In this document: positions 9,416-23,964 of the stretch, in pieces | Layout of the letters: each line of letters opens with the position of its first letter | Position numbering within the stretch: the first letter of the stretch is position 1 | From: Selenomonas sputigena | GTDB lineage: Bacteria > Bacillota > Negativicutes > Selenomonadales > Selenomonadaceae | NCBI RefSeq assembly: GCF_026015965.1 | Contig: NZ_CP110383.1 | Location: 715,808-779,807, forward strand | Length of the DNA stretch: 64,000 nucleotides | Direction of reading: 5' to 3' | Made by a program: the position numbers and the translations under genes | Notes under the pieces: model-generated | Told to the model about the DNA's origin: nothing | Database searches by the model: none | Seen by the model: the letters and a program-made list of their open reading frames with translations, nothing else

Positions 9416-9437
9416 AGAATCAGTAAGAGTAGGAAGA

Positions 9438-9473
9438 AGCCATCGAGGGAGAAATCCCGTCGGTGGCTTTTTT
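9438..9473 (+). terminator. Attenuator-like hairpin before HNH gene (copy)
   Basis: AGCCATCGA pairs with TCGGTGGCT around an inner GGGA-GAAA-TCCC stem-loop, followed by a T run. Same structure at 46321-46357. Confidence 0.65.
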
Positions 9474-9488
9474 GATGAAGGGGAAGCG

Positions 9489-9842: not shown

Positions 9843-9851
9843 ATGAACAGC

Positions 9852-10133
9852 TTATTCATCGAATATATCTGCATGAGTTCCAGTTTCGACAAGGGTCAAG
9901 GTTAGGATGTCATTTTCAACGAGGTACACCAACAACCAATCAGGTTGAACATGACACTCGCGAAACCCCGCCCAATTTCCGTGGAGTTCGTGGTCACGGT
10001 ATTTGGCATCCAGCTTGTGTCCCTGCCGCAATTTATCGACAACATCATCTAATAGTTTGAGTTTCAAGCCGCGTTTTTTTGCACGCTTGTAACTTTTCTT
10101 ATAGGCGCTGGTGAATTTGATGCGATAAGTCAT
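9852..10133 (-). CDS. YafQ-family mRNA interferase toxin, module 1
   Basis: 93 residues, RelE/ParE superfamily. It shows the YafQ-type residues: H in RDHELHG, H-x-x-x-D-W in CHVQPDWLLVY, and a late His in GTHADIF. These proteins cleave mRNA on the ribosome and are neutralised by DinJ. Start ATG 10133 overlaps the antitoxin stop by 4 bases. Opposite in strand to the phage genes around it, as expected for an independently transcribed TA pair. Confidence 0.88.
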   Translation of the reverse strand: MTYRIKFTSAYKKSYKRAKKRGLKLKLLDDVVDKLRQGHKLDAKYRDHELHGNWAGFRECHVQPDWLLVYLVENDILTLTLVETGTHADIFDE

Positions 10134-10402
10134 TCTTCCAAGGCCCTCTTTAGCTCATCCATATTGTCGTAGCTGGGGACGTTCGGGTCGCGGGAGATTT
10201 TTCTTGCTTCGTCCATAGCGGCCAAAGTGCTTTGCTTATAATGGGGCATTTCGACAGAAAAAGGGATGCCTCCACGAAGAACGCACTGATGCAGAAACAT
10301 GTTAACGGCACCGGACATATCCAAGCCCAACCCGGAAAACAAAATCCCGGCCTGTTCCTTTATATCTCGGTCAATTCTTATTTGAGTAGGGACAGTTGAC
10401 AT
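10130..10402 (-). CDS. RelB/DinJ-family antitoxin, module 1
   Basis: About 90 residues from ATG 10402 (GGAG upstream; a GTG at 10411 is too close to it). The N-terminal ribbon-helix-helix (PTQIRIDRDIKEQAGILFSGLGLDMSGAVNMFL) binds the operator and the C-terminal helix binds YafQ. Operon order antitoxin then toxin with a 4-base overlap is typical. Probably autoregulated. Confidence 0.88.
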   Translation of the reverse strand: MSTVPTQIRIDRDIKEQAGILFSGLGLDMSGAVNMFLHQCVLRGGIPFSVEMPHYKQSTLAAMDEARKISRDPNVPSYDNMDELKRALEE

Positions 10403-10474
10403 GGTGATCACACTCCTTTCTTTTAGAAATAGTATAGCTTGTTTGGTTTACGATGTAAAGCGAAATTCTTACTC

Positions 10475-11018
10475 ATGACTGGGGAGGAGCAGTCAAATCT
10501 CCAAAAGCGCGCCATTGCTGGACCAGCGATGGGTCACGCGCAAAAAAAGAACGGTTCATAGAATTCCCCATGACGGAATTGGACGAAGCAGACCTTGCAG
10601 ATGCCGCAGAGCTTTTCGGTGCAGATATGCCGAATCCGAGTGAGTATCTGTCTGCTCGGCAAAGGAACGGCAAGCCTCTCGTCGCGGACGAGATTTTCCG
10701 CGAAACATGGCTGTGGCCCAAGGAGCGCGGCTGTGAGCGTCTGGTGAATCCACGACTCCTCGAAAGTTACGCGCAGGCCTTCGCCCGCTTCATCCAATGC
10801 GAGGAAGCTGTGAGTCAATACGGGCTCATTGGCAAGCATACGACGCGACAGGCGGTGCGATTGCAAGCCCCTTCGTTCAGATGGGGCAGGCATTCCAGAA
10901 GCAGTCTAACCTGCTTTGGTACGAGATTTTCGATATCGTGAAGCAGAACTGCACGACGACGTTCAGCGGCTCGTCGCAAGAAGACCGAATGGAGCAACTG
11001 CTCCGATCGAGGAAGTAA
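10475..11018 (+). pseudogene. P27-type small terminase remnant (copy 1)
   Basis: Matches 46975-47644. An internal deletion joins the upstream leader (near 10557) to the coding sequence at MTELDEADLADAAELFGAD, removing the N-terminal 40 codons of the intact gene. A one-base change near IGKH shifts the frame, after which the intact C-terminus (QKQSNLLWYEIFD, RMEQLLRSRK) is found in another frame up to 11018. Confidence 0.85.
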
Positions 11019-11044
11019 AAGAAGCACCAATCCATAGATAGTGC

Positions 11045-11213
11045 TTCTTGTTTTGCGCTACGGTTAATCGAGATCTTGGCTCAGGTCAAGTACTCCTGCA
11101 CAATACCAGAACCGTCCATTTAAAAATCCATTATCGTTTTTTTAGGTAGTTTCGGTAGAATTTCTTCCGGTATTGGGGGAAACAGCACTCAAGAACCTTA
11201 TGATTCTTTTATC
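11045..11213 (-). pseudogene. 3' remnant of an exported protein gene
   Basis: About 165 bases almost identical to the 3' end of the opposite-strand gene at 47690-48214 (for example DLSQDLD and the GLFWYCAG region). The rest of the gene is absent. Shows that the remnant once carried the same cargo gene after its small terminase. Confidence 0.8.
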
Positions 11214-11215
11214 TG

Positions 11216-11340
11216 TTCGTGGCGGCGACGCTCGTGCATCACATCAAGCCGCTCGGCGATGGCGGCACGCATGACGAGAGCAATCTCATGTCGCTCTCAT
11301 TAGCTGTCACGAGAAAATTCATCGGAGAAGCCGAGAAAGA
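11216..11340 (+). pseudogene. HNH endonuclease 3' fragment
   Basis: Matches 46600-46715 (VAATLVHHIKPLGDGGTHDESNLMSL), with a small deletion. Joined directly to the exported-protein remnant at about 11214, so this is a scrambled piece. Nothing else is seen between 11019 and 11365. Confidence 0.8.
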
Positions 11341-11365
11341 TAAAAGCCGACTCAAAAAGAATCGG

Positions 11366-11638
11366 CTAGAAGAGATCAGAGTGTGAACCTGTGCGGGAAG
11401 CGGCTAGGATAAGCTGTCCCTTGTCGATAGCATAGACGAGCAGCCAATCGGGAGCGACATGGCATTCACGAAACCCGATGTAATCACCGACAAGCGCGTG
11501 ATCGCGATGCTTTTCAGACAAGGGTTCTTCTGCGCAGAGTGTTTGCAGGACATCGTCCAGCTTTTTCATATTCGCCCCGCGTTTTCGCAGACGTTTCAAG
11601 TCCTTGCGAAATTGCGTGGTAGTTACGAGTTCAAGCAT
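11366..11638 (-). CDS. YafQ-family mRNA interferase toxin, module 2
   Basis: About 90 residues from ATG 11638, which overlaps the antitoxin stop (11631) as GATGCTTGA. Carries RDHALVGDYIGF, CHVAPDWLLVY and GSHSDLF, the same His/Asp/Trp/His pattern as module 1, but the sequence is clearly different, so the two pairs are not recent duplicates. Predicted ribosome-dependent mRNA endonuclease. Confidence 0.88.
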   Translation of the reverse strand: MLELVTTTQFRKDLKRLRKRGANMKKLDDVLQTLCAEEPLSEKHRDHALVGDYIGFRECHVAPDWLLVYAIDKGQLILAASRTGSHSDLF

Positions 11639-11924
11639 CGCCGTCCTCCTCACCTAAGTCTTTTAAAAGTGCACTTAGGGAACGATAGCGTTTTGCCTCG
11701 ATTTTCCCGTCCATAATGGCGCGCGCTTCATCGATGGCTAGTAGCGTCTCTTTATTGTAGCGCGGCAGCTTCGGCTGGAAGGGAAAGCCGCCCTCCATTA
11801 TGGATGCGTGCAGAAAGATGTTGATGGCATCGGTGATGGATATGCCGAAGCTGGAAAAGACATCCTCTGCTTGGGCTTTCACCGTAGGCTCGATGCGCAT
11901 GTTGATGGTGGCAGTTTTGGTCAT
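11631..11924 (-). CDS. RelB/DinJ-family antitoxin, module 2
   Basis: 97 residues from ATG 11924, directly after AAAGGAGGAATC. Ribbon-helix-helix N-terminus (ATINMRIEPTVKAQAEDVFSSFGISITDAINIFLH) and an acidic C-terminus (LGEEDGDA) that should wrap the toxin. An upstream in-frame start at 11990 lacks a ribosome site. Confidence 0.88.
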   Translation of the reverse strand: MTKTATINMRIEPTVKAQAEDVFSSFGISITDAINIFLHASIMEGGFPFQPKLPRYNKETLLAIDEARAIMDGKIEAKRYRSLSALLKDLGEEDGDA

Positions 11925-11999
11925 GATACGATTCCTCCTTTCATTTATTGTAATGCGAAAGTGAAGCAGATGCAAGCTGTGTTTTGGCATCCCCCGGGG

Positions 12000-12172
12000 G
12001 CGGTAAAATCTCCAAAAGTGCGCTATTGTCGGACCGACGATGGGTCACGCGCAAAAAAAGAACGGTTCATGGAATTCCCCATGACGGAATTGGACGGAGC
12101 AGACCTTGCAGATGCCGCAGAGCTTTTCGGTGCAGATATGCCGAATCCGAGTGAGTACCTGTCTGCGCGGCA
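12000..12172 (+). pseudogene. P27-type small terminase remnant (copy 2)
   Basis: Repeats 10496-10670 including the same leader-to-coding deletion, so it derives from copy 1 or from the same deleted ancestor. Ends after NPSEYLSAR, where it is joined to a ParB-methylase fragment through a short shared GCGCGGCA. Confidence 0.8.
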
Positions 12173-12287
12173 GTCTGCGCGAATTCGACTTCATCAATCC
12201 CGTCATCATTGACAAGAACTGCGGCATCCTCGCAGGTCACGGGCGCGTTGCCGCTGCCAAGGCGGAGGGGATGAAGAGTGTGCCAGA
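12173..12287 (+). pseudogene. ParB-domain methylase fragment
   Basis: Matches 49018-49131 (SLREFDFINPVIIDKN, GILAGHGRVAAAKAEGM). Only the ParB-like sulfiredoxin-fold part of the adenine/cytosine methylase survives. Confidence 0.85.
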
Positions 12288-12486
12288 AGCGCGTGGTGTA
12301 TCTGCCGACGAATAGTTTCTATCAGGTGCTCTCAGCAGAGGCCTATTCAAAGCACGGATTCAACATCCACGGCGTTGTGTTTGACGAACTTCACACGTAG
12401 CCGAATCGCAAGCTCTTTGACGTTATGACGAAAGGCTCGGGCGATGCGCGAATGCAACCGCTCTACTTCCTCATCACGACGGCGGG
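12288..12486 (+). pseudogene. Large terminase fragment with TAG
   Basis: Matches 55680-55872 (VYLPTNSFYQVLSAEAYSKHGFN, FDVMTKGSGDARMQ). TAG at 12398-12400 replaces the CAG (Gln) of the intact gene in the HTQPNRK segment. Joined to the next fragment in the Thr-Ala-Gly codons. Confidence 0.88.
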
Positions 12487-12803
12487 GACAAATCGCCGAG
12501 ATTATCGAGAGCAAGGCCGTCGAGTACGGATTCACGATGCAGGAAAACACGATGGGCTGGGCAAACGAGCGCGACCGCGACACCTGCATCCGCATCGAGA
12601 TTCGCAAAGAGACGGATTACGAGAAGACGGATTGGGAAGACCGCAAGGTTTTCCGAGACATCGAAGCCAACGCCAGAATTTGCCAGATGGGCGGACATCC
12701 CACGCCGGAGGAACTTTTGAAAGCCGCCGACGAGATTGCGCGAGGTGCGAAATTCACCGCCGAAATCAACGGCATGGAGCTTTCCTGCATCGAAACCTTC
12801 TGA
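12487..12803 (+). pseudogene. Fragment of the 108-residue late-region gene
   Basis: Matches codons 5-108 of the gene at 56938-57264 (AEIIESKA, YGFTMQENTMGWAN, ICQMGG). Only the start and the first codons are lost, so it is fused to the terminase fragment and could be translated from an upstream start at 12444. Function unknown. Confidence 0.8.
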
Positions 12804-12812
12804 GCCGAAAAA

Positions 12813-12842
12813 AGGAGCGCCGCTCGGAAAGGCGGTGCTCCT
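12813..12842 (+). terminator. Terminator copy after remnant gene
   Basis: AGGAGCGCCGC (12813-12823) pairs with GCGGTGCTCCT (12832-12842). Equivalent of the 14-bp stem at 57273-57308. Confidence 0.6.
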
Positions 12843-12883
12843 GCTTATTACATAATTTGTTCTTGGATATTCTATTGTTCTGT

Positions 12884-13285
12884 TCAATTCCAATATTTGC
12901 TCAACATGATATGGTTCATTCGACTGCCGAAGGAAAGATACTCTTCACCGCCGATGGCATAGCATCCGCCGCTTGAATAGCGGTCATCATAATCGATTTT
13001 CGGGATGCTTTTCAGATGATAAGCCTGTGCAAATTCATACGGAGTGTTTTCGCAGTTTAGTCCTGAGCGGTCAAGCGAAGCAGAACTCCCCCTCATAAGG
13101 ATGATGCGGTCAACCGTATTCGCGTCGAATGTGACTGCGATGCCTAGGCTACGATAATACCAACCATAGGTATTCACATAAGGAGATAGATTCCTTGTTT
13201 CTGTAGGAGCACCGAGTACTTGTGCCACATCAGCTGAGATCATACCGGCAAGGTTCTCGGACTTTATCCTCTGCTTCCAGACAAG
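12884..13285 (-). pseudogene. 3' part of an unknown cargo gene
   Basis: About 130 codons (AGMISADVAQVLGAPTE, YVNTYGWYYRSLGI, GGEEYLSFGSRMNHIM) on the strand opposite to the phage genes. Its 5' end is replaced at about 13285 by portal sequence. It occupies the slot between the 108-residue gene and portal, which in the intact prophage holds different opposite-strand cargo (57414-58746). Composition suggests an exported or envelope protein; no family recognised. Confidence 0.5.
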
Positions 13286-14033
13286 ATGGAAGTTAGCCGC
13301 GACAGCCGCACAGGGGGAATCTACTACACTTACACCAGAAGTGCGGAGGAGAATCCGAACTTCAAGGACAAAGGACAGATTCGTTTGCGGCGTGAGGATG
13401 TGTTGCATATTCCAGGACTAGGCTTCGACGGTCTTGTGGGCTATTCACCCATTGCTATGGCAAAGAATACCGTCGGCATCGCTCTGGCGACGGAGGAATA
13501 CGGCGCGGCATTTTCCGACATGGTGCGTGTCCAGGTGGTGTCTTGGAGTATCCGGGCGTATTGAAAGACCCGTCGAAGCTGCGCGAAAGCTGGCACGCCG
13601 TCTACGGCGGTGCGATGAATACGGGCAGAATCGCCGTTCTCGAAGAGGGCGTCAAGTATCAGCAGATTGCCATACCGCCAGAAGAAGCGCAGTTCCTTGA
13701 GACGAGGAAGTTCCAGATCGATGAGATTGCGCGGCTCTATCGCGTGCCGCCGCATATGATCGGCGACTTGGAGAAATCGAGCTTCAACAATATCGAGCAG
13801 CAATCCTTGGAGTTCGTCAAGTACACGCTGAATCCGTGAGTCGTGCGCTGGGAGCAGTCACTGCAGAAAGCCTTGCTTACGGATAAGGAGCGAGAGGAAT
13901 ATTTCATTCGCTTCAAGGTGGACGGGCTTTTGCGCGGGGACTACAAGAGCCGCATGGAAGGGTACGCTATCGGCAGACAGAACGGTTGGCTCTCCACGAA
14001 CGACATCCGAAGTCTTGAGGACCTCAATCCTCA
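13286..14033 (+). pseudogene. HK97-type portal fragment, frameshift and TGA
   Basis: Matches 59187-59930. A one-base deletion near 13515 (after YGAAF) shifts frame, and TGG of the intact LNPWVVRWE is TGA at 13837-13839. The end (SLEDLNP) is joined to capsid sequence. Confidence 0.88.
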
Positions 14034-14430
14034 ACGGCGACGGTGTGCACAAGCCGCAGGGGCTTATTGCTACGGGGCAGATTTCCCTCACCCAGCGGCG
14101 GCAGACATCAAGGCGGACGAGCCTCTTTCCTTCGTCTACACGCTCAAGCGTCCTACCGCAAGAATGCGGCATTTCTTGGCAACGACTAGACGCTTGCAAG
14201 TATCCGCAACTTAAGGACAACAATGGCGCCTATCTGTGGTAGCCCTCGTACCAGATGGGCGAACCCGACCGGCTGCTCGGCCATCCCGTGTATTCCTCAG
14301 CATATATGCCCGCTATCGCAGCGGGCAAGACCGTCATCGCATTCGGCGATTACTCCTACTATAACATCGGGGATCACGGCATCCGCGCCCTGCAGGAAAT
14401 CAAGGAACTGTTCGAGGGCAACAGTATGTT
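14034..14430 (+). pseudogene. Major capsid fragment with TAG
   Basis: Matches 61441-61835 (GDGVHKPQGL, NNGAYLW then PSYQMGEPDRLLG). TAG at 14240-14242 replaces CAG of the intact gene, and there is a small deletion near 14190. Confidence 0.88.
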
Positions 14431-14444
14431 AGGTGAGAGTGTCC

Positions 14445-14770
14445 ATGAGCGAACTGCGTCACCGAATTTCTATCCTACGTCCCGTCACGGATACAGATGA
14501 TGAGGGAAATATACTCGCGCAGTCCATGTAGGAGATTGCAAAGGCATGGGCGATTGTTCTGCCCTTTGCGGCGAAAATCTCCGACGGGTATGCGGAGAAG
14601 GTGCAGGAGGTGGATTATCGCGTAGTCATTCTCGTTACCGTGCGGATGTACGAGTGACGGATCGTATCCGTTGGGGGACAAAATGCTCACACCGATTGCG
14701 CCACCGTATCCGCTTGGCGGAAAGAAACGATGGCTTGTTCTGGAATGCAGGGAGTTGGTGGAGGATGCCT
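14445..14770 (+). pseudogene. Head-tail joining protein remnant with TAG
   Basis: ATG 14445 reads MSELRHRISILRPVTDTDDE, then TAG at 14529-14531, then EIAKAWAIVLPFAAKISDGYAE, which parallels the intact gene at 62287-62628. It loses frame after DYRVV. Downstream bases still resemble the intact 3' end (CRELVE). Confidence 0.8.
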
Positions 14771-14829
14771 GAACCGTCGTCTGCGCAGGATGAATCATCT
14801 GGGGAAATGGAAAAAGCAGGAGGTTTTTG

Positions 14830-15234
14830 ATGATGGATCAGATTTTAACAATACGCCTCTATGTAGCGGGCATCGGCATCGTGGTTGGGGCGTTCCTCGG
14901 CAGTTTCGGCGATCTGCTCTATGCCCTTGTTATGTTTGTGGCAACGGATTATGTTATGGGAGTTCTCCGTGCGATTGTGGAAAAGAAACTGTCGAGTGCC
15001 AGCGACTTCAAGGGAATCTGCAAGAAAGTTTGCATCTTCACCCTTGTCGGCGTGGCAAACGTGCTGGATACACACTTCATCGGCAGCAGCTGCCTCCTGC
15101 GCTCCGACGTGATCTTCTTCTACATCTCGAATGAGCGAATCTCCATCATCGAGAACGCAGTACGAATGGGGCTTCCCGTTCCGCAGAAATTGCAGGACAT
15201 GATGCACAGCATTAAAAATCAGGAGGGTACATAA
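14830..15234 (+). CDS. Phage holin family protein
   Basis: About 134 residues; ATGs at 14827 and 14830 follow AGGAGG. Three hydrophobic segments (YVAGIGIVVGAFLGSFG, LLYALVMFVATDYVMGVLRA, FTLVGVANVLDTHFI) and the C-terminal ISNERISIIENAVRMGLPVPQKLQDMM are typical of the TcdE/phage_holin_4 family, which permeabilises the inner membrane for endolysin release. The gene is intact although the surrounding prophage is ruined. A second, partial copy of its 3' end lies at 18282-18392. Confidence 0.85.
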   Translation: MMDQILTIRLYVAGIGIVVGAFLGSFGDLLYALVMFVATDYVMGVLRAIVEKKLSSASDFKGICKKVCIFTLVGVANVLDTHFIGSSCLLRSDVIFFYISNERISIIENAVRMGLPVPQKLQDMMHSIKNQEGT

Positions 15235-15235
15235 C

Positions 15236-15275
15236 AACTTCAATGCCCAGCGGATAATCGTCGGGCGTTGAAGTT
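15236..15275. terminator. Bidirectional terminator between holin and hxlR
   Basis: AACTTCAATGCCC pairs with GGGCGTTGAAGTT. It lies between convergent genes; a related structure follows the holin remnant at 18397-18430. Confidence 0.6.
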
Positions 15276-15291
15276 TGTGTGAAGCATATTT

Positions 15292-15626
15292 TTATTCTGC
15301 AAGCTCTTTATATCTGCACCCCCATTGTTTCATAGCTGCAATGATGGGATTTAGGGATTCGCCCAATGAAGAGAGTGCATATTCCACACGCGGCGGCACT
15401 TCAGGGTAAACGGTGCGCGTGATGATGCCGTCAGCCTCCATCTGTCGAAGACTGTCCGTCAGTACCTTCTGGCTGCTCCCCCCAGAGCTCTTTGCAATTC
15501 GTTAAAACGCCAAGGACGCAAGATGAGATTCCTGATAATAAGAAGCTTCCACTTGCTTCCAATCATGCTGACTGTCGTTGCGACATCGCATTCCGGAAGA
15601 TCTTCTTTTTTGGCATGACAAACCAT
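15292..15626 (-). pseudogene. HxlR-family transcriptional regulator, frameshifted
   Basis: Reads from ATG 15626 as VCHAKKEDLPECDVATTVS, SKWKLLIIRNLILRPWRFNELQRALGG and then shifts at a run of six C (plus strand, about 15478-15483). With one extra base the frame continues QKVLTDSLRQMEADGIITRTV, PPRVEYALSSLGESL to TAA at 15292. The N-terminal Cys pattern and winged helix are typical of HxlR redox or aldehyde sensors. A homopolymer indel may be real, phase-variable, or a sequence error. It diverges from the RiPP-like operon and probably repressed it. Confidence 0.8.
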
Positions 15627-15661
15627 CTCCTCACATTATATATGCAGCACTTAAAATGAAA

Positions 15662-15687
15662 TGTTACATACTATATATAATGTAACA
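15662..15687. promoter_or_regulatory. HxlR-type operator candidate 1
   Basis: Inverted repeat TGTTACAT, 10 AT-rich bases, ATGTAACA, in the hxlR upstream region. Shares the GTTAC/GTAAC core with the sites at 15754-15767 and 15790-15796. Confidence 0.5.
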
Positions 15688-15753
15688 GCCGCAAAATTTC
15701 AATAACCTGCCACTCTGTTATAGAAGAGTTTCTTTCGTTATACTTACTTTGAG

Positions 15754-15767
15754 GTAACGCAGGTTAC
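15754..15767. promoter_or_regulatory. HxlR-type operator candidate 2
   Basis: GTAAC-GCAG-GTTAC, 15 bases upstream of the -35 of the RiPP-like operon promoter. A further GGTTACAT half-site lies inside the promoter spacer. Confidence 0.45.
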
Positions 15768-15781
15768 AAAATTGTGCGTAC

Positions 15782-15810
15782 TTGCGGAAGGTTACATCCT
15801 TGAATATAAT
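15782..15810 (+). promoter_or_regulatory. Promoter of the RiPP-like operon
   Basis: TTGCGG (15782-15787), 17 bases, TATAAT (15805-15810), 52 bases before the precursor ATG. Confidence 0.55.
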
Positions 15811-15862
15811 CGAAATCCCAGGAGGCAATGATGCCTGCTGGATGTCGATAAGGAGGACGATC

Positions 15863-16075
15863 ATGGCGTTATCAAACCTTTCCGGATGGACGGAAGACAA
15901 GACTGCCAGCGGCTGCGGAGCAGCCTGCGGTGCAGGTGACAAGCCCAATGAGGAACCTGCTGCCTGCGGTGCTGATGACAAGCCTGCAGAAGCCCCTGCA
16001 GCCTGCGGTGCCGGCGACAAGCCACAAGAGAAGCCGTCGGCTTGCGGGTCTTCCTGCGGCGCAGGTGACAAATAA
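15863..16075 (+). CDS. Cys-rich ACG-repeat peptide, candidate RiPP precursor
   Basis: 70 residues from ATG 15863 behind AAGGAGGACGATC. A short leader (MALSNLSGWTEDKTASG) is followed by four or five imperfect repeats containing CGA and ACGAGDKP, AACGADDKP, AACGAGDKP, SACGSSCGAGDK. There are eight or so Cys and no signal peptide. It resembles the ACGX-repeat peptides that pair with SPASM radical SAM enzymes in Firmicutes; the modification is unknown and the core repeats with GDKP spacers differ from a simple ACGX array. The next gene is the radical SAM enzyme. I infer it is the substrate. Confidence 0.75.
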   Translation: MALSNLSGWTEDKTASGCGAACGAGDKPNEEPAACGADDKPAEAPAACGAGDKPQEKPSACGSSCGAGDK

Positions 16076-16112
16076 GATTGGGATAAAAACCTTTCTTGTT
16101 TGAGCAGAACGG

Positions 16113-16150
16113 GAATCCTCCAGCTTTATCAGGGTTGGAGGATTCTTTTT
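16113..16150 (+). terminator. Intrinsic terminator/attenuator after precursor
   Basis: GAATCCTCCA pairs with TGGAGGATTC, followed by TTTTT. Located between the precursor and the radical SAM gene, where partial termination would give more precursor than enzyme. Confidence 0.75.
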
Positions 16151-16204
16151 GAAAGAAAACAGCTGCGCAGATGATACAGTTGAAACGGACAACGGTGAAA
16201 GATC

Positions 16205-17254
16205 ATGAAACCATACTTTTCCTTTCAATGGCACATAACAGATGCATGTGACCAGAGGTGCAAGCACTGCTATATTTATTCCGCCGGCGACCATACCTGT
16301 ATTCTTTCCATGACATGGAAGCAGATGGAAAGCACCTTCTACAACTGCCTTGATTTCTGCGAAGTATATGGAAGAACGCCCTATTTTTATATTACGGGCG
16401 GTGATCCGATCCTGCATCCTGATTTCTGGAAACTGCTTAAACTGATTCACGATCATGCGATCAAGTTCACGATTCTCGGCAATCCGTTTCATCTGAATGA
16501 CCAGATTTGTCGGGAGTTGAAATGGTATGGCTGTGAGAAGTACCAGCTTTCTCTTGATGGACTCAGGGAAACGCACGATTGGTTCAGGAAGCCAGGCTCT
16601 TATGACTGTACCTTAGAAAAGATTGCCTGTCTCAACAAAGCGGGCATACGGAGCGTCATCATGACCACGGTATCCAAAACGAATCGTATGGAAGTATCAG
16701 GCATCATTGATGCGGTCGCGTTGGCGGGGGTGAATGTATTTGCCTTTTCCAGATACGTTCCGAGCGGCGATGATCTGGATGTGTCCATGACAGCGCAGGA
16801 ATATCGGGATCTGCTTGCTGTCTGCGATCAGAAGTTCAAAGAATATGCAGAGCAGGGGTGCGATACCTACTTCAACAAAAAGGATCACCTATGGACGTTG
16901 TATGAATACGAGACAGGGGCATTTAAGATTCCCCCAAACGCGAAGACCGGTATGATCTATGGCGGCTGCAACTGTGGAAACTGTCATATCACCATTCTTC
17001 CTTCCGGCGATATCTACGCTTGTCGCAGAGTAGCAGACAGCAAGGTCGGAAATGGTTTTGAAGACCGTCTTGCTGATGTATGGGTGACAAGCATGGAAAG
17101 TTATCGAGAATACGAGCGGTTTGGTAAATGTGCGCGATGCAAACTGCTTGCATGGTGCAGGGGCTGCCCTGCCGTGGCAAAGGGGACAAGCGGTAGCTTT
17201 TATGCCGAAGATCCGCAGTGCTGGGCAGATGAAAACGGAATACTGTTTCAATAA
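16205..17254 (+). CDS. Radical SAM/SPASM peptide-modifying enzyme
   Basis: 349 residues. CDQRCKHC near residue 15-22 is the CX3CX2C cluster that binds the SAM-cleaving 4Fe-4S centre; GGDPILHPDF is the GGE-like SAM motif. The C-terminus has SPASM-type cysteines (GGCNCGNC, YACRR, CARCKLLAWCRGCP, and a last Cys in PQCW) for auxiliary clusters. Such enzymes install thioether or C-C cross-links or epimerise peptides. It lies 129 bases after the Cys-rich peptide and 27 bases before an oxidoreductase in the same direction. The likely substrate is the ACG-repeat peptide. Cytoplasmic. The chemistry cannot be told from sequence. Confidence 0.88.
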   Translation: MKPYFSFQWHITDACDQRCKHCYIYSAGDHTCILSMTWKQMESTFYNCLDFCEVYGRTPYFYITGGDPILHPDFWKLLKLIHDHAIKFTILGNPFHLNDQICRELKWYGCEKYQLSLDGLRETHDWFRKPGSYDCTLEKIACLNKAGIRSVIMTTVSKTNRMEVSGIIDAVALAGVNVFAFSRYVPSGDDLDVSMTAQEYRDLLAVCDQKFKEYAEQGCDTYFNKKDHLWTLYEYETGAFKIPPNAKTGMIYGGCNCGNCHITILPSGDIYACRRVADSKVGNGFEDRLADVWVTSMESYREYERFGKCARCKLLAWCRGCPAVAKGTSGSFYAEDPQCWADENGILFQ

Positions 17255-17281
17255 AAACTCAAGATAAGAAGGATATGCCAC

Positions 17282-18247
17282 ATGAAAACAATGAGAGCGA
17301 TTGTGATCGATAAGCCGACAACAGCAGAAAATATCACGTTTTCAGAGGTCGCTGTTCCTGCAGGCAAACATGGTTGGGTTCTTGTAAAGATCAAGGCATT
17401 TGGACTGAACCATTCGGAGCAGATTATCTGGGAACATGAAATCCTGCGGGATTATATCAAGAAACCCGTCATCCCCGGCATTGAATGCGTAGGCGTGATC
17501 GAGGATGCGTCCGATACAGATCTGAGCGTTGGGCAAAAGGTGGTCGCCCTTATGGGCGGCATGGGGAGAAGCTTTGACGGCAGCTATGCCGAATATGCAC
17601 TTTTGCCGCGACAACATGTGTTTCCGGTCGATACGGAAATGAGCTGGGTCGAGATGGGCGCTGTTCCAGAAACCTACTATACCGCATGGGGATCGCTGAT
17701 GCAGCGTCTGCAGCTGAGGCGTGATGACACGCTTCTGATCCGCGGCGCAAGCTGCGCTCTGGGGTATGCCGCGATGCAGCTGGCCAAGGCACTTGGCTGT
17801 AAAATCATCGCAACCACACACCGGGACAAACACCTGCATTTGCTTCAGGAAGGCGGTGCGGATGAATCTGTCCTTGACGATGGAGAGATCGCCGACAAGA
17901 TTTGCGGAGCAACGAAGGCACTGGAACTGATCGGCTGCAAAACATTATTTGATACGATGCGGTCGGTAGAACCCGGCGGCATCATTTGTTATACCGGCGT
18001 TCTTGGAAATGTATTTGCATTCCAGAGCTTTTCGTCGCTGAATCACATACCAAATGGCGTATATCTGACCGGATTTCACTCGAATGATCCAACGGATGAT
18101 GATTTGAGGGACATTTTCAGTTTTATAGACAAGTATAACTTAAAGCCGCTCACCGGAGCGATATATCGTTTCGACGACATCAGGCAGGCGCTGATTGACC
18201 TTGATGGCCATAAGGTGCAGGGAAAGATTGTCATCTGCATGGAGTAA
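17282..18247 (+). CDS. MDR-family NADPH:quinone oxidoreductase-like protein
   Basis: 321 residues with a GroES-like N-terminal domain (FGLNHSEQI, PVIPGIECVGVI) and a Rossmann fold (RGASCALGYAAMQLAKALG). No zinc-binding Cys/His set is evident, so it belongs with zinc-independent quinone oxidoreductases/enoyl reductases. 27 bases after the radical SAM gene with AAGGAT upstream, so probably the same transcript. HxlR regulators often control such reductases. It may act in redox detoxification or in peptide maturation; the second is speculation. Confidence 0.85.
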   Translation: MKTMRAIVIDKPTTAENITFSEVAVPAGKHGWVLVKIKAFGLNHSEQIIWEHEILRDYIKKPVIPGIECVGVIEDASDTDLSVGQKVVALMGGMGRSFDGSYAEYALLPRQHVFPVDTEMSWVEMGAVPETYYTAWGSLMQRLQLRRDDTLLIRGASCALGYAAMQLAKALGCKIIATTHRDKHLHLLQEGGADESVLDDGEIADKICGATKALELIGCKTLFDTMRSVEPGGIICYTGVLGNVFAFQSFSSLNHIPNGVYLTGFHSNDPTDDDLRDIFSFIDKYNLKPLTGAIYRFDDIRQALIDLDGHKVQGKIVICME

Positions 18248-18281
18248 TGTGGATACATGAACGCGAATACGCAATCAGGCA

Positions 18282-18392
18282 TTTCTCTTCATCTCGAATG
18301 AAGGAATCTCAATTGTAGGACACGCAGCGAGGATGGGGCTTCCTGTACCGAAGAAATTACAGGACATGGTGCATAGTCTTAAAAATCAATAA
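18282..18392 (+). pseudogene. Holin 3' remnant
   Basis: Reads FLFISNEGISIVGHAARMGLPVPKKLQDMVHSLKNQ-like residues and a TAA, parallel to the end of the holin at 14830-15234. The following hairpin (CAACGCCCGGCG) is also shared. Together with 15114-15275 it flanks the RiPP-like island as a diverged direct repeat. Confidence 0.8.
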
Positions 18393-18500
18393 TTAGTTTA
18401 ACCTCAACGCCCGGCGAATGATCGTCGGGTTATTTTTATGCCTCCGAAGGTGGCCAAAAGTGCCGGTTTTGTCTGCTGTTCCATGAAGGGAGATGTTGAA

Positions 18501-18686
18501 ATGAGCAAGGAAGAAGGACTTGGGGAAGTGACGTATCAGATGGTGATGCGTGCTTCATGGAAAATGCTGCAGAGCGAACTTTTGTCAGAGAACGAGTATA
18601 TTGCCTTTGAAGCGAAAATGCGTGAGAAATATCGCCCCGTCATCGGGCTTCTATTTTCAGATATTGGCTCGCTATTGTGCGGATAG
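18501..18686 (+). CDS. Small SHOCT-like protein beside recombinase
   Basis: 61 residues from ATG 18501 (GGGAGATG upstream). The segment LLSENEYIAFEAKMREKYRPVIG has the short amphipathic C-terminal pattern of SHOCT-type proteins that are commonly encoded just upstream of large serine recombinases in Firmicutes elements. Function unknown; it may modulate the recombinase. Confidence 0.55.
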   Translation: MSKEEGLGEVTYQMVMRASWKMLQSELLSENEYIAFEAKMREKYRPVIGLLFSDIGSLLCG

Positions 18687-18720
18687 TACGGGAATATGAG
18701 CATGGAAAGGAGCAGATGAG

Positions 18721-19224
18721 ATGAAAATACGAAGAGTTGAACGCAGCGTTCCTGTCATGCGCCCGAAAATACGTGTAGCCACATATGCCCGCGTTTCTGT
18801 GGATACGCTTCACCACTCTCTTGCGGCGCAGGTCAGTTATTACAGCCCCCTCATCCAGAAGAATCCCGCATGGGAGTACGCAGGTGTTTACGCAGATGAA
18901 GGAATCACAGGCACAAGTACCGCGCATCGGACGGAGTTCAAGCGGCTGATTGCGGACTGCAACACCGGGAAGATCGATTTGGTGCTCGTCAAAAGCATCA
19001 GCTGCTTTGCCTGCGACACTGTAGATTGCCTTCATACCGTCCGACGCTTGAAAGAGAAGGGGATCGCCGTCCGTTTCGAGCGCGAGAACATTGATTCCAT
19101 GTCTGAGGACGGAGATGTCCAATGCGTGAAAATGATACAAAGGCTATCGCTGCCATACGTCGTGAAACCGCAGTATACAAGGGATTTCAGAGATTTCTCT
19201 GTCTGGAAGCTCGTTGATTTTTGA
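18721..19224 (+). pseudogene. Large serine recombinase, truncated and mutated
   Basis: The N-terminal catalytic domain is present: YARVSVD with the nucleophilic Ser, and YADEGITGTS. The usual KSISRFARNTVD motif reads SISCFACDTVD, so both Arg positions are Cys (CGC to TGC). The protein ends after about 168 residues, losing the recombinase and zinc-ribbon domains found in the usual 500-residue family members. After SMSEDGD the sequence no longer fits the family. It is the likely ex-integrase of an element here, and dead. Confidence 0.8.
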
Positions 19225-19270
19225 CGATGTTCAGCGATTTTTCGCTCGATGGAAGATTGACCAACTGGCA

Positions 19271-19295
19271 GGGGTGTCAAAGTGTTTGACACCCC
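19271..19295. repeat. Perfect 11-bp inverted repeat
   Basis: GGGGTGTCAAA-GTG-TTTGACACCCC in the 19225-19683 spacer. No T run follows, so it looks more like an operator than a terminator. Apart from this, a possible 28-codon ORF at 19297-19383 (MAHSKGKISEFMKAYGNW...) and the promoter at 19597-19640, I see nothing in this spacer. Confidence 0.6.
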
Positions 19296-19596
19296 TATGG
19301 CACACTCGAAAGGAAAAATATCAGAGTTCATGAAGGCTTACGGGAACTGGCTTCACGAGCATTTTTACGACTCGGATTTTTGACACCCTTGTCGAGAATC
19401 AGCCATTGACATTTTGCTTAAATAACGGTCTTCAAAAACGTATGCCAGTTATGGACGTTCTGTCATAGGCATAAATCTTAAGCAGGAATAGAGAACCCAA
19501 TTGTCGAAAACAAATATTAATATAGGTATTTATGGGAAGGAAGAAGAGCCAACTTGAATGAAGGAAACACTCGATAGATAGTGAATTTCTTGAAAA

Positions 19597-19640
19597 AGTT
19601 ATATATAACTATTGACGGCTGCGCAACGTTATACTATAAT
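19597..19640 (+). promoter_or_regulatory. Promoter with overlapping palindrome
   Basis: TTGACG (19612-19617), 17 bases, TATAAT (19635-19640). Just upstream is the palindrome AGTTATATATAACT (19597-19610); a partial copy, AGTTATATATAAT, follows at 19656-19668. Placement suggests repression or autoregulation of the methylase operon. Confidence 0.65.
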
Positions 19641-19689
19641 TTGATTATGTCATATAGTTATATATAATCATTTATGGGAGGGGTTGCCT

Positions 19690-21462
19690 GTGGCTCTCGA
19701 AACATCAAGTCAAGCGCCGTTCATGTTGCTTTCTAAAGAAGAACTGCTTGCCTTGAAAGACATGCCCAACAAGGATGTGGCGCGGGATGGCATGAATCTG
19801 CTTCGAGCAAAATTCGTGCCTGATTTGGCGGATTTCGTGTCTTTTGCGTTATTGGCATATTGGAAGAAGTCTGTTCCAGACGATAATAAAGAGACCTTGA
19901 GGAATTTGACAGAGTGGTTGGTAGAAGATGATTCTGTAAAGATAAAGCTTCGTAATGTATTAGGAAACTGTTTCCGTGAAATCATCGCATTTGCTGATGA
20001 ATGGAGTTCGAAGGAACTGCTTGCCGTGATTGTGAATGATTTCTCGTGGTATGCTAAAAATGATGGAAAGCGAAGCGGGTTGTCCGATACACCGAAGCCA
20101 TTTGCATATATAGCGAGGGAATTGCTCTGTATTGGCGCGGGGGAAACGGTGCTCGACTACTGCTCGGGGACGGCAGGGTTTATCCTTGATGCCTATCTGC
20201 ACACAGAAGCTGCAAAGTATTATGGAACGGAAATTTCCACCGAGGCTGCCATTGTAAGCAAAATAAGGGCGTTGTTCTTGGGCGATGCGCTTTTTATTCG
20301 TCAAGGCAACAGCGTGACTGCTGAACTCAATGCGGATAAAGTATTCGCTGACCCGCCCTTTGGCATGAAAGATGATTATGGCATAGAAAAATGGCGGCCA
20401 CAAGATACCGGCCTCGCCCTTGTTTATGAAAGCATTCCCAGAACCCGGCGTATGGATTGGGCATTTGTGCTGTCTGCTCTTACCAGACAAAAAGACGGCG
20501 GGAGAACGGTCATATTGACCTACGACAGCCTGTTGTTCCGAGCCTCTAAGGGCGAGCAGGAAATGCGTCGTAGACTTGTGAAAAGCGGACGTTTGGAGTC
20601 AGTTATTGCTTTGCCTCAAGGGATTCTTCCTGCGACCAATATTCTGTGTGACTTGTTGGTGTTTAGTCATGGCAATACCAGCGTAAAGATGGTGGATGCA
20701 AGAGATTGCAGAGTAAAAGAGCGTTTCACCAGCGAAATGACGCAGGAAAACCTGGATGAAGTTTTGCGGCGAGTGAGCGAAGTGACGGACTACAGCCGCA
20801 CGGTATCCCACGAGGAGATTGCCGAGCGGGAATATGGTCTAAGCCCCGTGGATTATATGGCGTCTGCTCGTATCAAGGTTGAAAATGGTGTACCCTTGGG
20901 GAATTTACTTATTTCGTTAGAACGAGGGCAGCTTGTGCCGGCGGCAAAGCTGGAGGCGCTTTCCACCAAGGAAGAAACAGAATTTCAATATCTCATGCTT
21001 AAGGACGTCGAGGATGATGCCATCCGCACGCCTCTGCCATACTTGACAGACATACCGGAAGCATGGGACAAGTACTGTGTAACGACAGGAAGTCTGGTCA
21101 TATCTCGCAGTGCGCCGATAAAGGTCGCCATCATTCCCGATTTGAAGGGGAAGAAGGTTCTAGCCAACGGCAATATGTATTTTATGAAACTTGACGAGAA
21201 CCGTGTAAACTCCATCTATGTGCTTTGCTACCTAAAAAGTCGGGAGGGTATCAAGCAAATAGAATTTCTATCAAAAGGCTGTTCTATTACAACGCTTTCC
21301 ATTAAGGACTTGCAAAAGATTCTCATCCCTATGCTACCTATCGAGGAACAGGCAGAGCTTGCGGAGAAATATACATCGCTCCGCCGTCACATTGCCTCGC
21401 TGAAACGACAAGAGCGTGAATTGGAGGGTAAAATTGCCTCCCTCATAGAGGAGGTGCATTGA
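19690..21462 (+). CDS. N6-adenine methylase fused to specificity-like domain
   Basis: About 590 residues from GTG 19690 (GGGAGGGG six bases upstream; the TTG at 19684 is too close). An HsdM-like N-terminal helical part, SAM motif I (LDYCSGTAGFI), catalytic FADPPFGM, then from about residue 390 a target-recognition-like half (EYGLSPVDYMASARIKVENG, GCSITTLSIKDLQKILIPMLP, coiled coil ending). This is a methylase-S fusion rather than a three-subunit type I enzyme. It overlaps the next small gene by 4 bases. No nuclease is adjacent, so it may be an orphan methylase or part of a defence pair. Confidence 0.85.
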   Translation: MALETSSQAPFMLLSKEELLALKDMPNKDVARDGMNLLRAKFVPDLADFVSFALLAYWKKSVPDDNKETLRNLTEWLVEDDSVKIKLRNVLGNCFREIIAFADEWSSKELLAVIVNDFSWYAKNDGKRSGLSDTPKPFAYIARELLCIGAGETVLDYCSGTAGFILDAYLHTEAAKYYGTEISTEAAIVSKIRALFLGDALFIRQGNSVTAELNADKVFADPPFGMKDDYGIEKWRPQDTGLALVYESIPRTRRMDWAFVLSALTRQKDGGRTVILTYDSLLFRASKGEQEMRRRLVKSGRLESVIALPQGILPATNILCDLLVFSHGNTSVKMVDARDCRVKERFTSEMTQENLDEVLRRVSEVTDYSRTVSHEEIAEREYGLSPVDYMASARIKVENGVPLGNLLISLERGQLVPAAKLEALSTKEETEFQYLMLKDVEDDAIRTPLPYLTDIPEAWDKYCVTTGSLVISRSAPIKVAIIPDLKGKKVLANGNMYFMKLDENRVNSIYVLCYLKSREGIKQIEFLSKGCSITTLSIKDLQKILIPMLPIEEQAELAEKYTSLRRHIASLKRQERELEGKIASLIEEVH

Positions 21463-21998
21463 CTTTGCTGTCTGAAAATGATTTTGCCGGATTGGTGGAT
21501 GAGGTGCAGGACAAAATCTATCAGCAAATGGAATTCGCTTGGAAGAATCACCAACTGGACGACTATTTGCGGCAAATCGGTCTGGGGGATTTGGCAATCC
21601 GGCAACCAGCGAGTGATTGGGACGATTCTCTCTCGCATGGCAAAATTATCGTATTCGGAGAAGCTGCCGCTAGGGAAAACGATATTGTCAAATCCATAAC
21701 CAGCCAAGGTGTTTCCAAGGATAGGGTGGAACTTCACCTTGGTTATGACGAGTTCAAGCGGTATAGGTTTGGCGATCTTCAGTACAACAGCGCGTATCGA
21801 CTGATACTGGCAGGGCCGCTTCCGCATTCTACGAACGACAAGGGCGGCTATTCCAGCGTTATTGCGAGGATGGAACAGGAGGAAGGTTTTACCAAATTGG
21901 TAAAGCTGTCCAGCAATGGCAGGCTAAAAATTACGAAAACAAATATAAAGGAAGCCGTACAGCGGGAAATCGAATCAGGATATTTGGCTGTAGGCTGA
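21459..21998 (+). CDS. Conserved-looking partner of the methylase, unknown
   Basis: 179 residues from TTG 21459, overlapping the methylase stop (ATTGA) and therefore translationally coupled. Soluble, with a possible nucleotide- or ligand-binding segment (HGKIIVFGEAA) and a basic C-terminus (NGRLKITKTNIKEAVQREIESGYL). I do not recognise the family. Coupling suggests it works with the methylase, for example as effector or regulator; that is inference. Confidence 0.6.
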   Translation: MTLLSENDFAGLVDEVQDKIYQQMEFAWKNHQLDDYLRQIGLGDLAIRQPASDWDDSLSHGKIIVFGEAAARENDIVKSITSQGVSKDRVELHLGYDEFKRYRFGDLQYNSAYRLILAGPLPHSTNDKGGYSSVIARMEQEEGFTKLVKLSSNGRLKITKTNIKEAVQREIESGYLAVG

Positions 21999-22048
21999 TC
22001 TCTTGTGGAAACAAAGATAAAAGATAGAAATGGAGATTTAAGAGGGTT

Positions 22049-22726
22049 ATGGCTGTGAAAAAATCAGAATTGTATTCGCTCCTATGGGAGGCTTGCAATA
22101 AACTTCGGGGAGGCGTGGAGCCTGCCCGCTATAAGGATTATGTTCTTGTGCTGCTGTTTTTCAAATATGTGTCCGACCGATACAAAGGGGAGCGGCGCGC
22201 CGATTTTACGGTAAACCAAGGCGCGTCCTTCGATGAACTCATTGAGGCAAAATACACACCTAATGTGGCGGAGACGGTGGATAAAATCCTCCAGAAGTTC
22301 TTGGAGGACAACCATCTTTCCGGCGCTCTGCCGGACGTCAATTTCAATAACCCGGACGAACTTGGTACGGGCAAGGAACTGGTGGACAAGGTGTCCGGAC
22401 TGATCGCCATATTCGAAAATCCTGCCATTGAATTCAAGAGCAATCGCGCCAGCGGCGATGACATCATCGGTGACGCCTACGAATATTTCATGATGAAGTT
22501 CGCCCAAGAGTCCGGCAAGAGCAAGGGCCAGTTTTATACCCCTAGCGAAGTCTCCCGCATTATTGCCCGCTTGATTGGCATTGGGGACATCAAGCCCAGC
22601 CTCACGAAGAAGTGGACGCTTTACGACAAAAGCACCGCGAGAATGATACACCTGAAATGGCGCAGAAGTGCCTTGAAATCACTGGAATTCGGAGGTTTTA
22701 CAGGTTATTCGGGCAAGGCAGCATAG
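22049..22726 (+). pseudogene. hsdM: Truncated type I methylase subunit HsdM
   Basis: The HsdM N-terminal domain (LWEACNKLRGGVEPARYKDYVLVLLFFKYVSDRY) and the start of the catalytic domain (GQFYTPSEVSRIIARL) are intact up to TLYD. There the invariant SAM motif (PxCGxG) should follow, but the sequence changes to an unrelated tail that stops at 22726. Without SAM-binding and NPPF motifs it cannot methylate. Confidence 0.85.
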
Positions 22727-22761
22727 ATGGAATCTAGAGTGGGAGACGAAAATAGTCGGTT

Positions 22762-22815
22762 CGATAGAATACCCTGAAACGATAGAAAAAGCTATCGTTT
22801 CAGGGTATTCTATCG
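22762..22815. repeat. 24-bp perfect inverted repeat, 6-base loop
   Basis: Left arm 22762-22785 (CGATAGAATACCC...), loop AAAAAG, right arm 22792-22815 fully complementary. Far longer than a usual terminator stem. It lies just after the truncated hsdM. Confidence 0.9.
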
Positions 22816-22859
22816 TTAAAATGTAAGAACGAGGTGAATGCAGGTTTCTGTAAGGCGTG

Positions 22860-22956
22860 AGGACATATGTACAGCGTGACGCTATGATGTACCATCGCCA
22901 GAATCGGGCGCAAAAGGAAACTGTGCCCTTTGGCGTGGCGGCTGAACATATGTCCT
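22860..22956. repeat. 97-bp segment bounded by 16-bp inverted repeats
   Basis: AGGACATATGTACAGC (22860-22875) faces GCTGAACATATGTCCT (22941-22956), one mismatch. Could be a MITE-like element or an excision scar. No ORF inside. Confidence 0.6.
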
Positions 22957-22969
22957 GAAAGTTTGCAAT

Positions 22970-23863
22970 CTATTCGTTGTCCTTCACATCATTTTCCGAT
23001 ATTGCTGCATCTGCGCTCACCTCAATCATCTGCGTAACCACATGATTAAGCTCCGAGGCATTCTTACTCGTGATGCTCGGTTTCCTTGTTTCACTTTCGA
23101 TGGCTCTCCGAGCATTTCCGGCTACTTTGCCGCCCCGCTTGGCTACGGAAATACTTTGAGAAAAACCTTGCGGCTGCTCGGCAGCGGAAAATTCCCTGGT
23201 CGCGGTTTCTGCCAGCATATTCAGCACCAGTTCCGTGGTGCTCATGTTGTCGCGCAGACTCTCTTTTTTGAGCCCTTTCAGATTTTTGTACTGACGGGTG
23301 GTCATTCCGCTCCATGCGCGAGTGAGTTCATCGGTTAAAATGGCGTACTCCTTTCCTTGTTTGACGCCGCGCTCTTTCCATTCGTCGGTGAGTTCTTTGC
23401 GGGCGCTGATCGCCATGAGCCGCTGGTTGATCCATTCCCGTGTGTAGCCTTTATGCTCGTAGGTAGATACCAGTCGCTCGGCGATAAGTTCTGGGTCAAG
23501 GGTTTCGTCAATGCGTTCTCGTCCCACCTGTGCCAGCCAGAGCTTGAGCGGCTCGGCCTTTTTTGATGGAATGGACTGGATAAGGCGGAGAAGCTGCTCA
23601 GTGTTGGCGACATCCGTAAGGCGGCGTTTGCCATCAGCGGCTTTCAATCGCAAACCGTGACAATTTGTCACGGTTTCATTTCCCTCTTCTTTGAGTCGTT
23701 GTTTTAGTTTTCGCCAATACGCTGTTGGATTCTTGCTTTCTGTCAGCACGCCTATCACATCAACGATGGAGAAATACCACGCCTCTTCATCTTCGCTCCA
23801 AGCGGTGCGGATAGGTTGATTTTCAAAAAGTTGGAGATTTTCGTTGCATGTGTTCTCTTTCAT
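22970..23863 (-). CDS. BRO/DinD-like antirepressor-family protein
   Basis: 297 residues. A BRO-N-like N-terminus (FENQPIRTAWSEDEEAWYFSIVDVIGVLTES, YWRKLKQRL) is followed by a DinD-type middle (DETLDPELIAERLVSTYEHKGYTREWINQRL) and a C-terminal tail. BRO-N domains bind DNA; DinD-like genes often ride with type I restriction loci and mobile elements. It lies 101 bases downstream of hsdR on the same strand. Role may be regulation of the element or modulation of RecA-type repair. Confidence 0.75.
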   Translation of the reverse strand: MKENTCNENLQLFENQPIRTAWSEDEEAWYFSIVDVIGVLTESKNPTAYWRKLKQRLKEEGNETVTNCHGLRLKAADGKRRLTDVANTEQLLRLIQSIPSKKAEPLKLWLAQVGRERIDETLDPELIAERLVSTYEHKGYTREWINQRLMAISARKELTDEWKERGVKQGKEYAILTDELTRAWSGMTTRQYKNLKGLKKESLRDNMSTTELVLNMLAETATREFSAAEQPQGFSQSISVAKRGGKVAGNARRAIESETRKPSITSKNASELNHVVTQMIEVSADAAISENDVKDNE

Positions 23864-23964
23864 GGCATAGCCTTTCTGCCTGAGTGGCTGGGAGTCGGAA
23901 ATACATACCTTTTTCTGGACACCTTGTCAATCGATGTTTTTGCATGATTTTTGCTCCGTACATG

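Follow-up and report, generated by a model that had tools for sequence, protein, structure and literature searches.

The peptide operon at positions 15,662 to 18,247 of a 64,000-nucleotide stretch of Selenomonas sputigena DNA (contig NZ_CP110383.1; the whole stretch is called the window below) is, as judged from its sequence, a member of the named ACGX family (acgA/acgM) and represents no new pairing, because both genes exceed the cut-offs of the NCBIfam models. The radical SAM enzyme AcgM scored 569.5 bits against TIGR04340 "rSAM_ACGX" (cut-off 400), and TIGR04341 "ACGX-repeat peptide" (cut-off 28) matched residues 1-70 of the peptide AcgA with 70 bits. Homologues are labelled acgA and acgM in a Roseburia plasmid record, and the same names are used in PGAP. 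The genes found next to the pair point to an intracellular redox-stress role and not to an antibiotic, as far as gene content can tell. We give an even chance to the reading that the operon encodes a ribosomally synthesized and post-translationally modified peptide (RiPP) of the ACGX type which, together with its redox partners, would act as a cytosolic thiooxazole peptide in redox and electrophile defence.

The initial annotation had described a RiPP-like locus resembling ACGX systems, with a SPASM radical SAM enzyme, an MDR oxidoreductase and an HxlR gene, and the TIGR04340, TIGR04341 and Pfam matches bear this out. It had, in addition, considered the Asp-Lys-Pro spacers together with the linked oxidoreductase and HxlR genes to be an unfamiliar combination. 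This view cannot be kept: both genes have NCBIfam names, the combination is rather the common layout of the ACGX family, and novelty of the gene combination is ruled out by the NCBIfam matches together with the neighbourhood counts given below. The ACGX kind is already named and chemically uncharacterised. That product and chemistry are undescribed holds for open PubMed Central papers, a subset in which no paper on ACGX peptides was found (subscription papers lie outside this search). The features of the locus are as follows.

15292..15626, - strand: HxlR (DUF24)-family regulator gene (PF01638 over the cut-off on both pieces)
15754..15783, + strand: operator-like stretch (inverted repeat and motif counts)
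15863..16075, + strand: acgA, 70-aa ACGX-repeat precursor with MALSNLSGW leader (TIGR04341, 70 bits vs 28)
16112..16150, + strand: hairpin plus T5 in the acgA-acgM gap, likely attenuator (-24.9 kcal/mol)
16205..17254, + strand: acgM, radical SAM/SPASM maturase of 349 aa (TIGR04340, 569.5 bits)
17282..18247, + strand: MDR-family oxidoreductase, quinone-oxidoreductase-like (PF08240, PF00107 and PF13602 over the cut-off)

The peptide, radical SAM/SPASM and MDR genes all lie on the + strand, and the HxlR-type gene diverges from them on the - strand. The start codon of acgA (ATG at 15863) is preceded by AAGGAGG, and acgM follows directly on the same strand after a gap of 129 nt. The Cys-rich repeat peptide with a leader that had been predicted is real: besides the TIGR04341 match, the DNA of acgA contains a repeat with a period of 39 nt in three copies, and the 70-residue product (encoded by 15863-16072) begins with MALSNLSGW and has six Cys, all six in Cys-Gly. 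The oxidoreductase carries the ADH_N and ADH_zinc_N domains (PF08240, PF00107) as well as PF13602; its best NCBIfam family was the PIG3 quinone oxidoreductase, with 138 bits well below the cut-off of 297. An Rfam scan of window positions 8000-24000 gave no match, and a tRNA scan of the whole window found none. Compared with other ACGX loci, that of the window shares gene order, repeat and leader and shows no essential difference; its own oddities are a broken HxlR gene and a genome without a match to SirTM. The NCBIfam names are silent on the links to HxlR, oxidoreductases and SirTM described here.

Precursor peptides and conserved neighbourhood

Precursor rules were derived from 91 different peptides, for which open reading frames (ORFs) with at least two Cys-Gly motifs had been picked. 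In this set Gly directly follows 545 of the 548 Cys, and Ala directly precedes 529 of them. Once the first unit of each CGxxCG doublet and any unit followed by less than three residues had been set aside, 370 Cys-Gly units remained; in 362 of them at least one of the next four residues is acidic. Asp/Glu-Lys was present in all 91 peptides and DKP in 59. The leader M[AS]LxxL/IxxW stands at the start of 88 of the 91, and one of the three exceptions (L080) is an ORF of uncertain start. The core consists of A, G, C, K, P, D, S and E, with hydrophobic or aromatic residues almost absent, and no Sec signal was recognised by eye on AcgA. A peptide of Methanosphaera, outside the 91, has units of the form ACG[TGS]E; it belongs to a module on an archaeal rumen plasmid (Methanosphaera sp. 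ISO3-F5 plasmid pNP174, 4440-8024; L113) that comprises a regulator, the precursor, an MDR gene and a PNPOx-ferredoxin-like gene, with acgM in two ORFs.

A scan of the species-genome collection gave 520 stretches with relatives, the best 80 of which were used, and 380 genomes of the window's class were searched, giving 21 with matches, 20 of them above the cut-off. The locus table thus holds 101 loci (80 + 21). The window (L001), L109 (the same gene as L106) and L002-L007 (other radical SAM genes of the same genome) were left out; L051 and L099, seemingly a single locus present in both collections, were kept as two entries. The class loci had about 1.5 kb of sequence on either side, so that the counts of SirTM and macrodomain genes within 5 kb are lower bounds. 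With the window counted, a precursor was found next to acgM in 96 of 102 loci, and the six misses all had 297 nt or less upstream; in the 96 loci with more than 297 nt the precursor was always present, in the same order and on the same strand, with a median gap of 103 nt. The Cys-rich neighbour, whose consistent lack beside the radical SAM homologues had been named as the finding that would speak against the pairing, is therefore kept.

Within 5 kb, the 101 loci contained MDR in 60, nitroreductase in 53, PNPOx-ferredoxin in 36 and glyoxalase in 11 cases; SirTM was present in 40 and the Zn-macrodomain protein in 35. The regulator was HxlR, located upstream, in 76 loci. LysR was found in 13 loci and was upstream and divergent in 11 of these; among the 81 loci with at least 1400 nt upstream, 67 had HxlR, 10 LysR and 4 neither. 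An MDR, nitroreductase or PNPOx-ferredoxin gene lay within 2 kb downstream in 95 of the 96 loci with at least 600 nt there, the sole exception (L084) having a nitroreductase at 2.3 kb. Where 5 kb were available downstream, all 53 loci had an oxidoreductase within 2 kb, always on the same strand, whereas in the control no oxidoreductase occurred 1-5 kb upstream in any of the 47 loci with 5 kb on that side. The gene association holds throughout records that carry the labels Lachnospiraceae, Oscillospiraceae, Selenomonadaceae and Spirochaetota, and also on a Methanosphaera plasmid; some contigs of metagenome-assembled genomes, e.g. those of Succinivibrio and Prevotella, may be mis-binned. No dedicated exporter or protease was seen among the larger neighbour clusters, seven representatives of which were scanned in Pfam. 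In 105 further downstream proteins from 32 SirTM-bearing loci, the 25 of 89 Pfam families shown included MatE with three, ABC with two and MFS with two proteins.

A form with LysR in place of HxlR, centred on Selenomonadaceae, was seen in L092-L098, L100, L104, L106 and L108. Its downstream genes are nitroreductase (11/11) and glyoxalase (10/11), replacing MDR, and many spacers of its precursors read SGDKV. A phage-borne family was ruled out, since 50,697 phage records gave three matches at 22-24% identity. One IMG/VR contig of 504 kb (3300028886_000026; L110) encodes at 4941-6026 an AcgM homologue of 51% identity that matches the ACGX model; an ACGX precursor was not found on this contig.

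The two proteins that often accompany the oxidoreductases were identified by profile and structure matches. The macrodomain neighbour scored 342 against the NCBIfam protein-ADP-ribose hydrolase family (cut-off 272), in agreement with its matches to solved structures, and the best solved match of the sirtuin neighbour was 5a3a (E 1.5e-70), which we take to be the SirTM of S. pyogenes. Among 398 genomes of the window's phylum, ACGX was over the cut-off in 9 and SirTM was matched in 18. A SirTM match was present in 6 of the 9 ACGX genomes and in 12 of the 389 others (Fisher p 2.7e-7, uncorrected for kinship), G669 and G526, with TIGR04340 scores below the cut-off, being counted among the latter. 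In four of the nine, SirTM lay within 3.5 kb downstream of ACGX on the same strand; in G605 and G695 the matches were on other contigs and weak or partial. No match was obtained in G641, G243 and the window's own genome (G000) with the query that matched 18 of the 398. SirTM, macrodomain and oxidoreductases are also shared with the extended SirTM/Zn-macrodomain operon of S. aureus and S. pyogenes; unlike in that operon, GcvH or LplA was not among the 25 of 89 Pfam families shown for the 105 further downstream proteins of ACGX loci, and the window's genome is without a SirTM match.

Regulator, operator-like motif and attenuator

The HxlR gene mentioned in the initial annotation is present at 15626-15292 (-), outside the interval that was annotated, and it is frameshifted into two frames (15626-15459 and 15441-15292). 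Among 74 homologues uncut by a contig or locus end, the window is the sole case of a broken gene. DUF24 regulators sense the redox state at an N-terminal Cys, and such a Cys is conserved in 77 of 77 HxlR homologues. The protein resembles RrpA/RrpB (NCBIfam redox_TF), with scores under their cut-offs.

Upstream of acgA the window has an inverted repeat, GTAAC..GTTAC, at 15754-15767, followed by TGTGCGTACTT at 15773-15783. The sequence AAGTACGCAC was found 5' of acgA in 65 of 89 distinct upstream regions, whereas in one single-base shuffle the most frequent 10-mer reached a count of 3. When loci were divided by regulator (near-copies included), the pattern [AT]GTGC[GC]TNCTT occurred 5' of acgA in 59 of 77 HxlR-type loci, in none of the 11 LysR-type loci and in 4 of 6 loci without a found regulator. 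The difference between the HxlR and LysR types ties the motif to HxlR, and the GTGCGTACTT region is a putative HxlR operator.

An attenuator had been proposed between acgA and acgM. In the window the proposal is likely right: the hairpin at about 16112-16145, followed by T5, has a folding energy of -24.9 kcal/mol and a z of -4.8, and none of 200 shuffles equalled it, although it was not listed by a simple terminator scan. A hairpin with a T-run was found in 14 of 80 distinct intergenic stretches of at least 40 nt (window counted), with 3.4 expected from shuffles, which rules out the attenuator as a family trait.

Maturase, predicted chemistry and function

AcgM contains the radical SAM (PF04055) and SPASM (PF13186) domains, both above cut-off. 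In 34 AcgM sequences C15, C19 and C22 (CX3CX2C) are invariant, and so are eight Cys of the SPASM region (C255, C257, C273, C309, C312, C318, C321 and C339). The predicted structure (mean predicted local distance difference test score 85.6; in the cluster-binding loop, residues 17-22 and 26-29 fall below 50) has a SPASM fold, its nearest solved structures being SuiB, SkfB and anSME; by sequence, the best solved match was SkfB (4.3e-10). Identity as a defence gene was rejected, because the PADLOC viperin models gave only 55.9 bits as against 569.5 for ACGX.

The second-best NCBIfam family of AcgM was SbtM (TIGR04082), with 158.2 bits over the entire AcgM, ahead of heme b synthase (110), and all 35 AcgM sequences tested matched the SbtM profile. 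AcgM is not filed as SbtM because its score lies under the cut-off of 350; it aligns to positions 198-515 of the 516-position profile, hence without the N-terminal ~197 positions. No SbtM was found in the 398 genomes of the window's phylum, in a search whose controls were likewise silent, and the label was absent from the 60 of 105 plasmid matches listed. SbtM was reportedly described by Lewis in 2021 as a thio(seleno)oxazole maturase of Geobacter; for ACGX loci no selenocysteine signal is known. According to PMC11002830, SbtM acts on a small Cys-containing precursor, and its substrates lose four hydrogens as a thiooxazole is formed; the AcgM precursor is likewise small and contains Cys. As SbtM is the nearest named family, a loss of four hydrogens per modified Cys (thiooxazole) seems more likely for AcgA, by this analogy, than the loss of 2 Da (thioether) proposed in the initial annotation. 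PMC12668002 and PMC12538549 place the absorbance of thiooxazoles near 305 nm. Thiooxazole peptides made by MNIO enzymes (bufferins, fontiphorin, bulbicupramide) are described as having Cys-Gly units that are repeated or motif-bound, as in AcgA, and the bulbicupramide cluster has no protease nearby, like the ACGX loci scanned. They differ in the enzyme class, in the Sec signal of the bufferins and in a copper-handling role. If the thiooxazole chemistry holds for AcgM, it would provide an oxygen-free route to such peptides.

Starting from what the sequence comparisons establish, namely family membership, gene layout, the tie of the operator-like motif to HxlR and the Cys-Gly rule, we infer regulation, chemistry, location and function of the ACGX operon as follows. 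An HxlR/DUF24 repressor with one N-terminal redox Cys would occupy the operator 5' of acgA and be released under thiol or electrophile stress. At the window locus the attenuator would allow acgA to be made in excess over the enzymes. AcgM, which has no extra N-terminal domain, would recognise the short MALSNLxGW leader and oxidise every A-C-G unit at its Cys; the group formed is most likely a 5-thiooxazole, by analogy with SbtM, with 4 H lost per Cys. Bearing several such modifications, the peptide is proposed to remain in the cytosol because no conserved exporter or protease was seen adjoining; with the co-transcribed oxidoreductase it may protect against thiol, electrophile, oxidative and perhaps metal stress. 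With such a layout (redox-type regulator, Cys-Gly repeat peptide, radical SAM maturase, oxidoreductase and often SirTM with the macrodomain protein), ACGX would no longer count as a presumed bacteriocin and could be tested as a redox-stress system of anaerobes from gut and rumen.

A number of observations weigh against this picture. As drawn, the regulation cannot work in the window, where HxlR is broken, and L059, L067, L091 and L103 have neither HxlR nor LysR despite at least 1400 nt upstream. The 101 loci are a non-random sample with some near-copies, and the counts are not independent, because the loci are related and were chosen by similarity to the window; the Cys-Gly count is, moreover, slightly circular, as the choice of ORFs required at least two such motifs. 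Since MDR, nitroreductase and PNPOx-ferredoxin share one slot, none of them may be specific for the peptide. An ABC-transporter-like cluster occurs in six loci at scattered positions, and in view of this and of the seven clusters scanned in Pfam there may yet be an exporter. Finally, the likeness of AcgM to SbtM consists of profile scores, and the chemistry of AcgM may differ, given the score below 350 and the missing first ~197 positions.

The alternatives concern the chemistry, the ligand and the fate of the locus. AcgM could act like the enzymes of sactipeptides or ranthipeptides and bond each Cys sulfur to carbon in a residue nearby, at a loss of 2 Da per Cys; the resulting series of thioether rings would be exported as an antimicrobial. 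That AcgM is a SPASM enzyme, that its model is nearest to the RiPP maturases SuiB and SkfB and that it weakly matches the PapB, StsB and SkfB models would fit such a product. The scores against PapB (NF047865; 58.7 bits, cut-off 340) and StsB (57.3, cut-off 625) are, however, far below the 158 of SbtM, and neither a transporter nor a peptidase is prominent among the 25 of 89 downstream families shown. The core of AcgA, nearly free of hydrophobic and aromatic residues, is also unlike the cores of known sactibiotics, and we regard a thioether antimicrobial as unlikely. It appears quite unlikely that the peptide serves to bind a metal, its Cys-Gly thiooxazoles chelating copper or another soft metal in the manner of bufferins, by a radical SAM route that needs no oxygen and would suit anaerobes. 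Thiooxazole peptides do bind copper, and their Cys-Gly stands within Lys-Cys-Gly and EGKCG motifs, according to PMC12538549 and PMC12452194. Yet no metal transporter or sensor was recognised in the 28 neighbour clusters listed (seven of them scanned in Pfam), the partners of ACGX are oxidoreductases and often the SirTM pair, and bufferins bear Sec signals, while none was seen by eye on AcgA.

The window locus might, on the other hand, be decaying prophage cargo without a useful product in this genome, which we hold to be quite improbable. The frameshift of HxlR in the window alone (1/74), the position of the cassette, with a holin gene on one side and another, diverged holin 3' end on the other, the lack of the locus in G239, a genome of the same genus, and the lack of a SirTM match in the window's genome would all agree with decay. 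Against it, the reading frames of acgA, acgM and MDR are uninterrupted and can be aligned with their relatives over the full length; loss of the repressor could merely leave the operon on, and the frameshift lies beside a C run, where a sequencing error is possible.

Within the preferred reading of a cytosolic redox-defence peptide, the SirTM neighbours suggest a further step. Lipoylated GcvH-L, an interaction partner of an oxidoreductase, is the known target of SirTM (PMC4518038), and further targets are stated to be unknown in PMC11490716. Co-occurrence of SirTM with ACGX, taken together with this statement, suggests that AcgA could be a target, and makes ACGX a concrete candidate for the question left open there, that of SirTM targets beyond GcvH-L operons. 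A bolder version, which we consider very doubtful, is that modified AcgA would be a ribosomal sulfur-heterocycle counterpart of lipoyl-GcvH-L, i.e. a small redox carrier whose thiooxazoles, or other groups derived from Cys, are cycled by the co-transcribed MDR, nitroreductase or PNPOx-ferredoxin, and which is switched off by SirTM through ADP-ribosylation of the acidic residue after Cys-Gly and switched on again by the Zn-macrodomain protein. If so, ACGX would be the missing target of many SirTM/macrodomain pairs without GcvH-L, and the window version would be a minimal form without the ADP-ribosylation switch.

Origin and surroundings of the window copy

In a tree of 96 AcgM rows (without L054, L062, L104-L107 and L109) the window was placed within a starred group of 80 rows, most of them from Lachnospiraceae and Oscillospiraceae, and away from the LysR-type rows that belong to its own family; support for the placement inside this group was weak (82/78). 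The highest identity of the window AcgM was 87%, to L008. Another pair of Selenomonadaceae rows (L051/L099) stands in the same group, and the AcgM of G227, from the same family as the window's genome, is identical to a Selenomonadaceae (Schwartzia) record. In the class-genome search ACGX was absent from G239. The cassette, with MDR as its only oxidoreductase and no SirTM match in the genome, is bracketed by a holin gene (PF05105) at 14827-15265 and, at 18286-18429, a second, diverged copy of the 3' end of this gene and of the DNA that follows it (103 nt at 79% and 30 nt at 83%). Taking into account the tree position outside the LysR rows of its own family, the absence from G239 and the holin bracket, we regard horizontal acquisition of the window copy as probable; the cassette lies in the midst of prophage remnants. 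Phage gene pieces around the cassette were seen by eye, and a moron-like insertion or a duplication in a prophage remnant is likely.

Just downstream of the cassette, 18721-19224 encodes an N-terminal piece of a serine recombinase (PF00239; ORF of 167 aa). An ORF of 592 aa at 19684-21462 matched, in PADLOC, a type I methyltransferase with its first part and a type I specificity subunit with its last; the ORF that follows (21459-21998) had no match among the PADLOC models. The DNA of the holin region was matched at 71-76% elsewhere in the genome, including G000:C1:777517-786390 (from about 61710 of the window onward), and these matches suggest a second, related prophage that starts near the end of the window.

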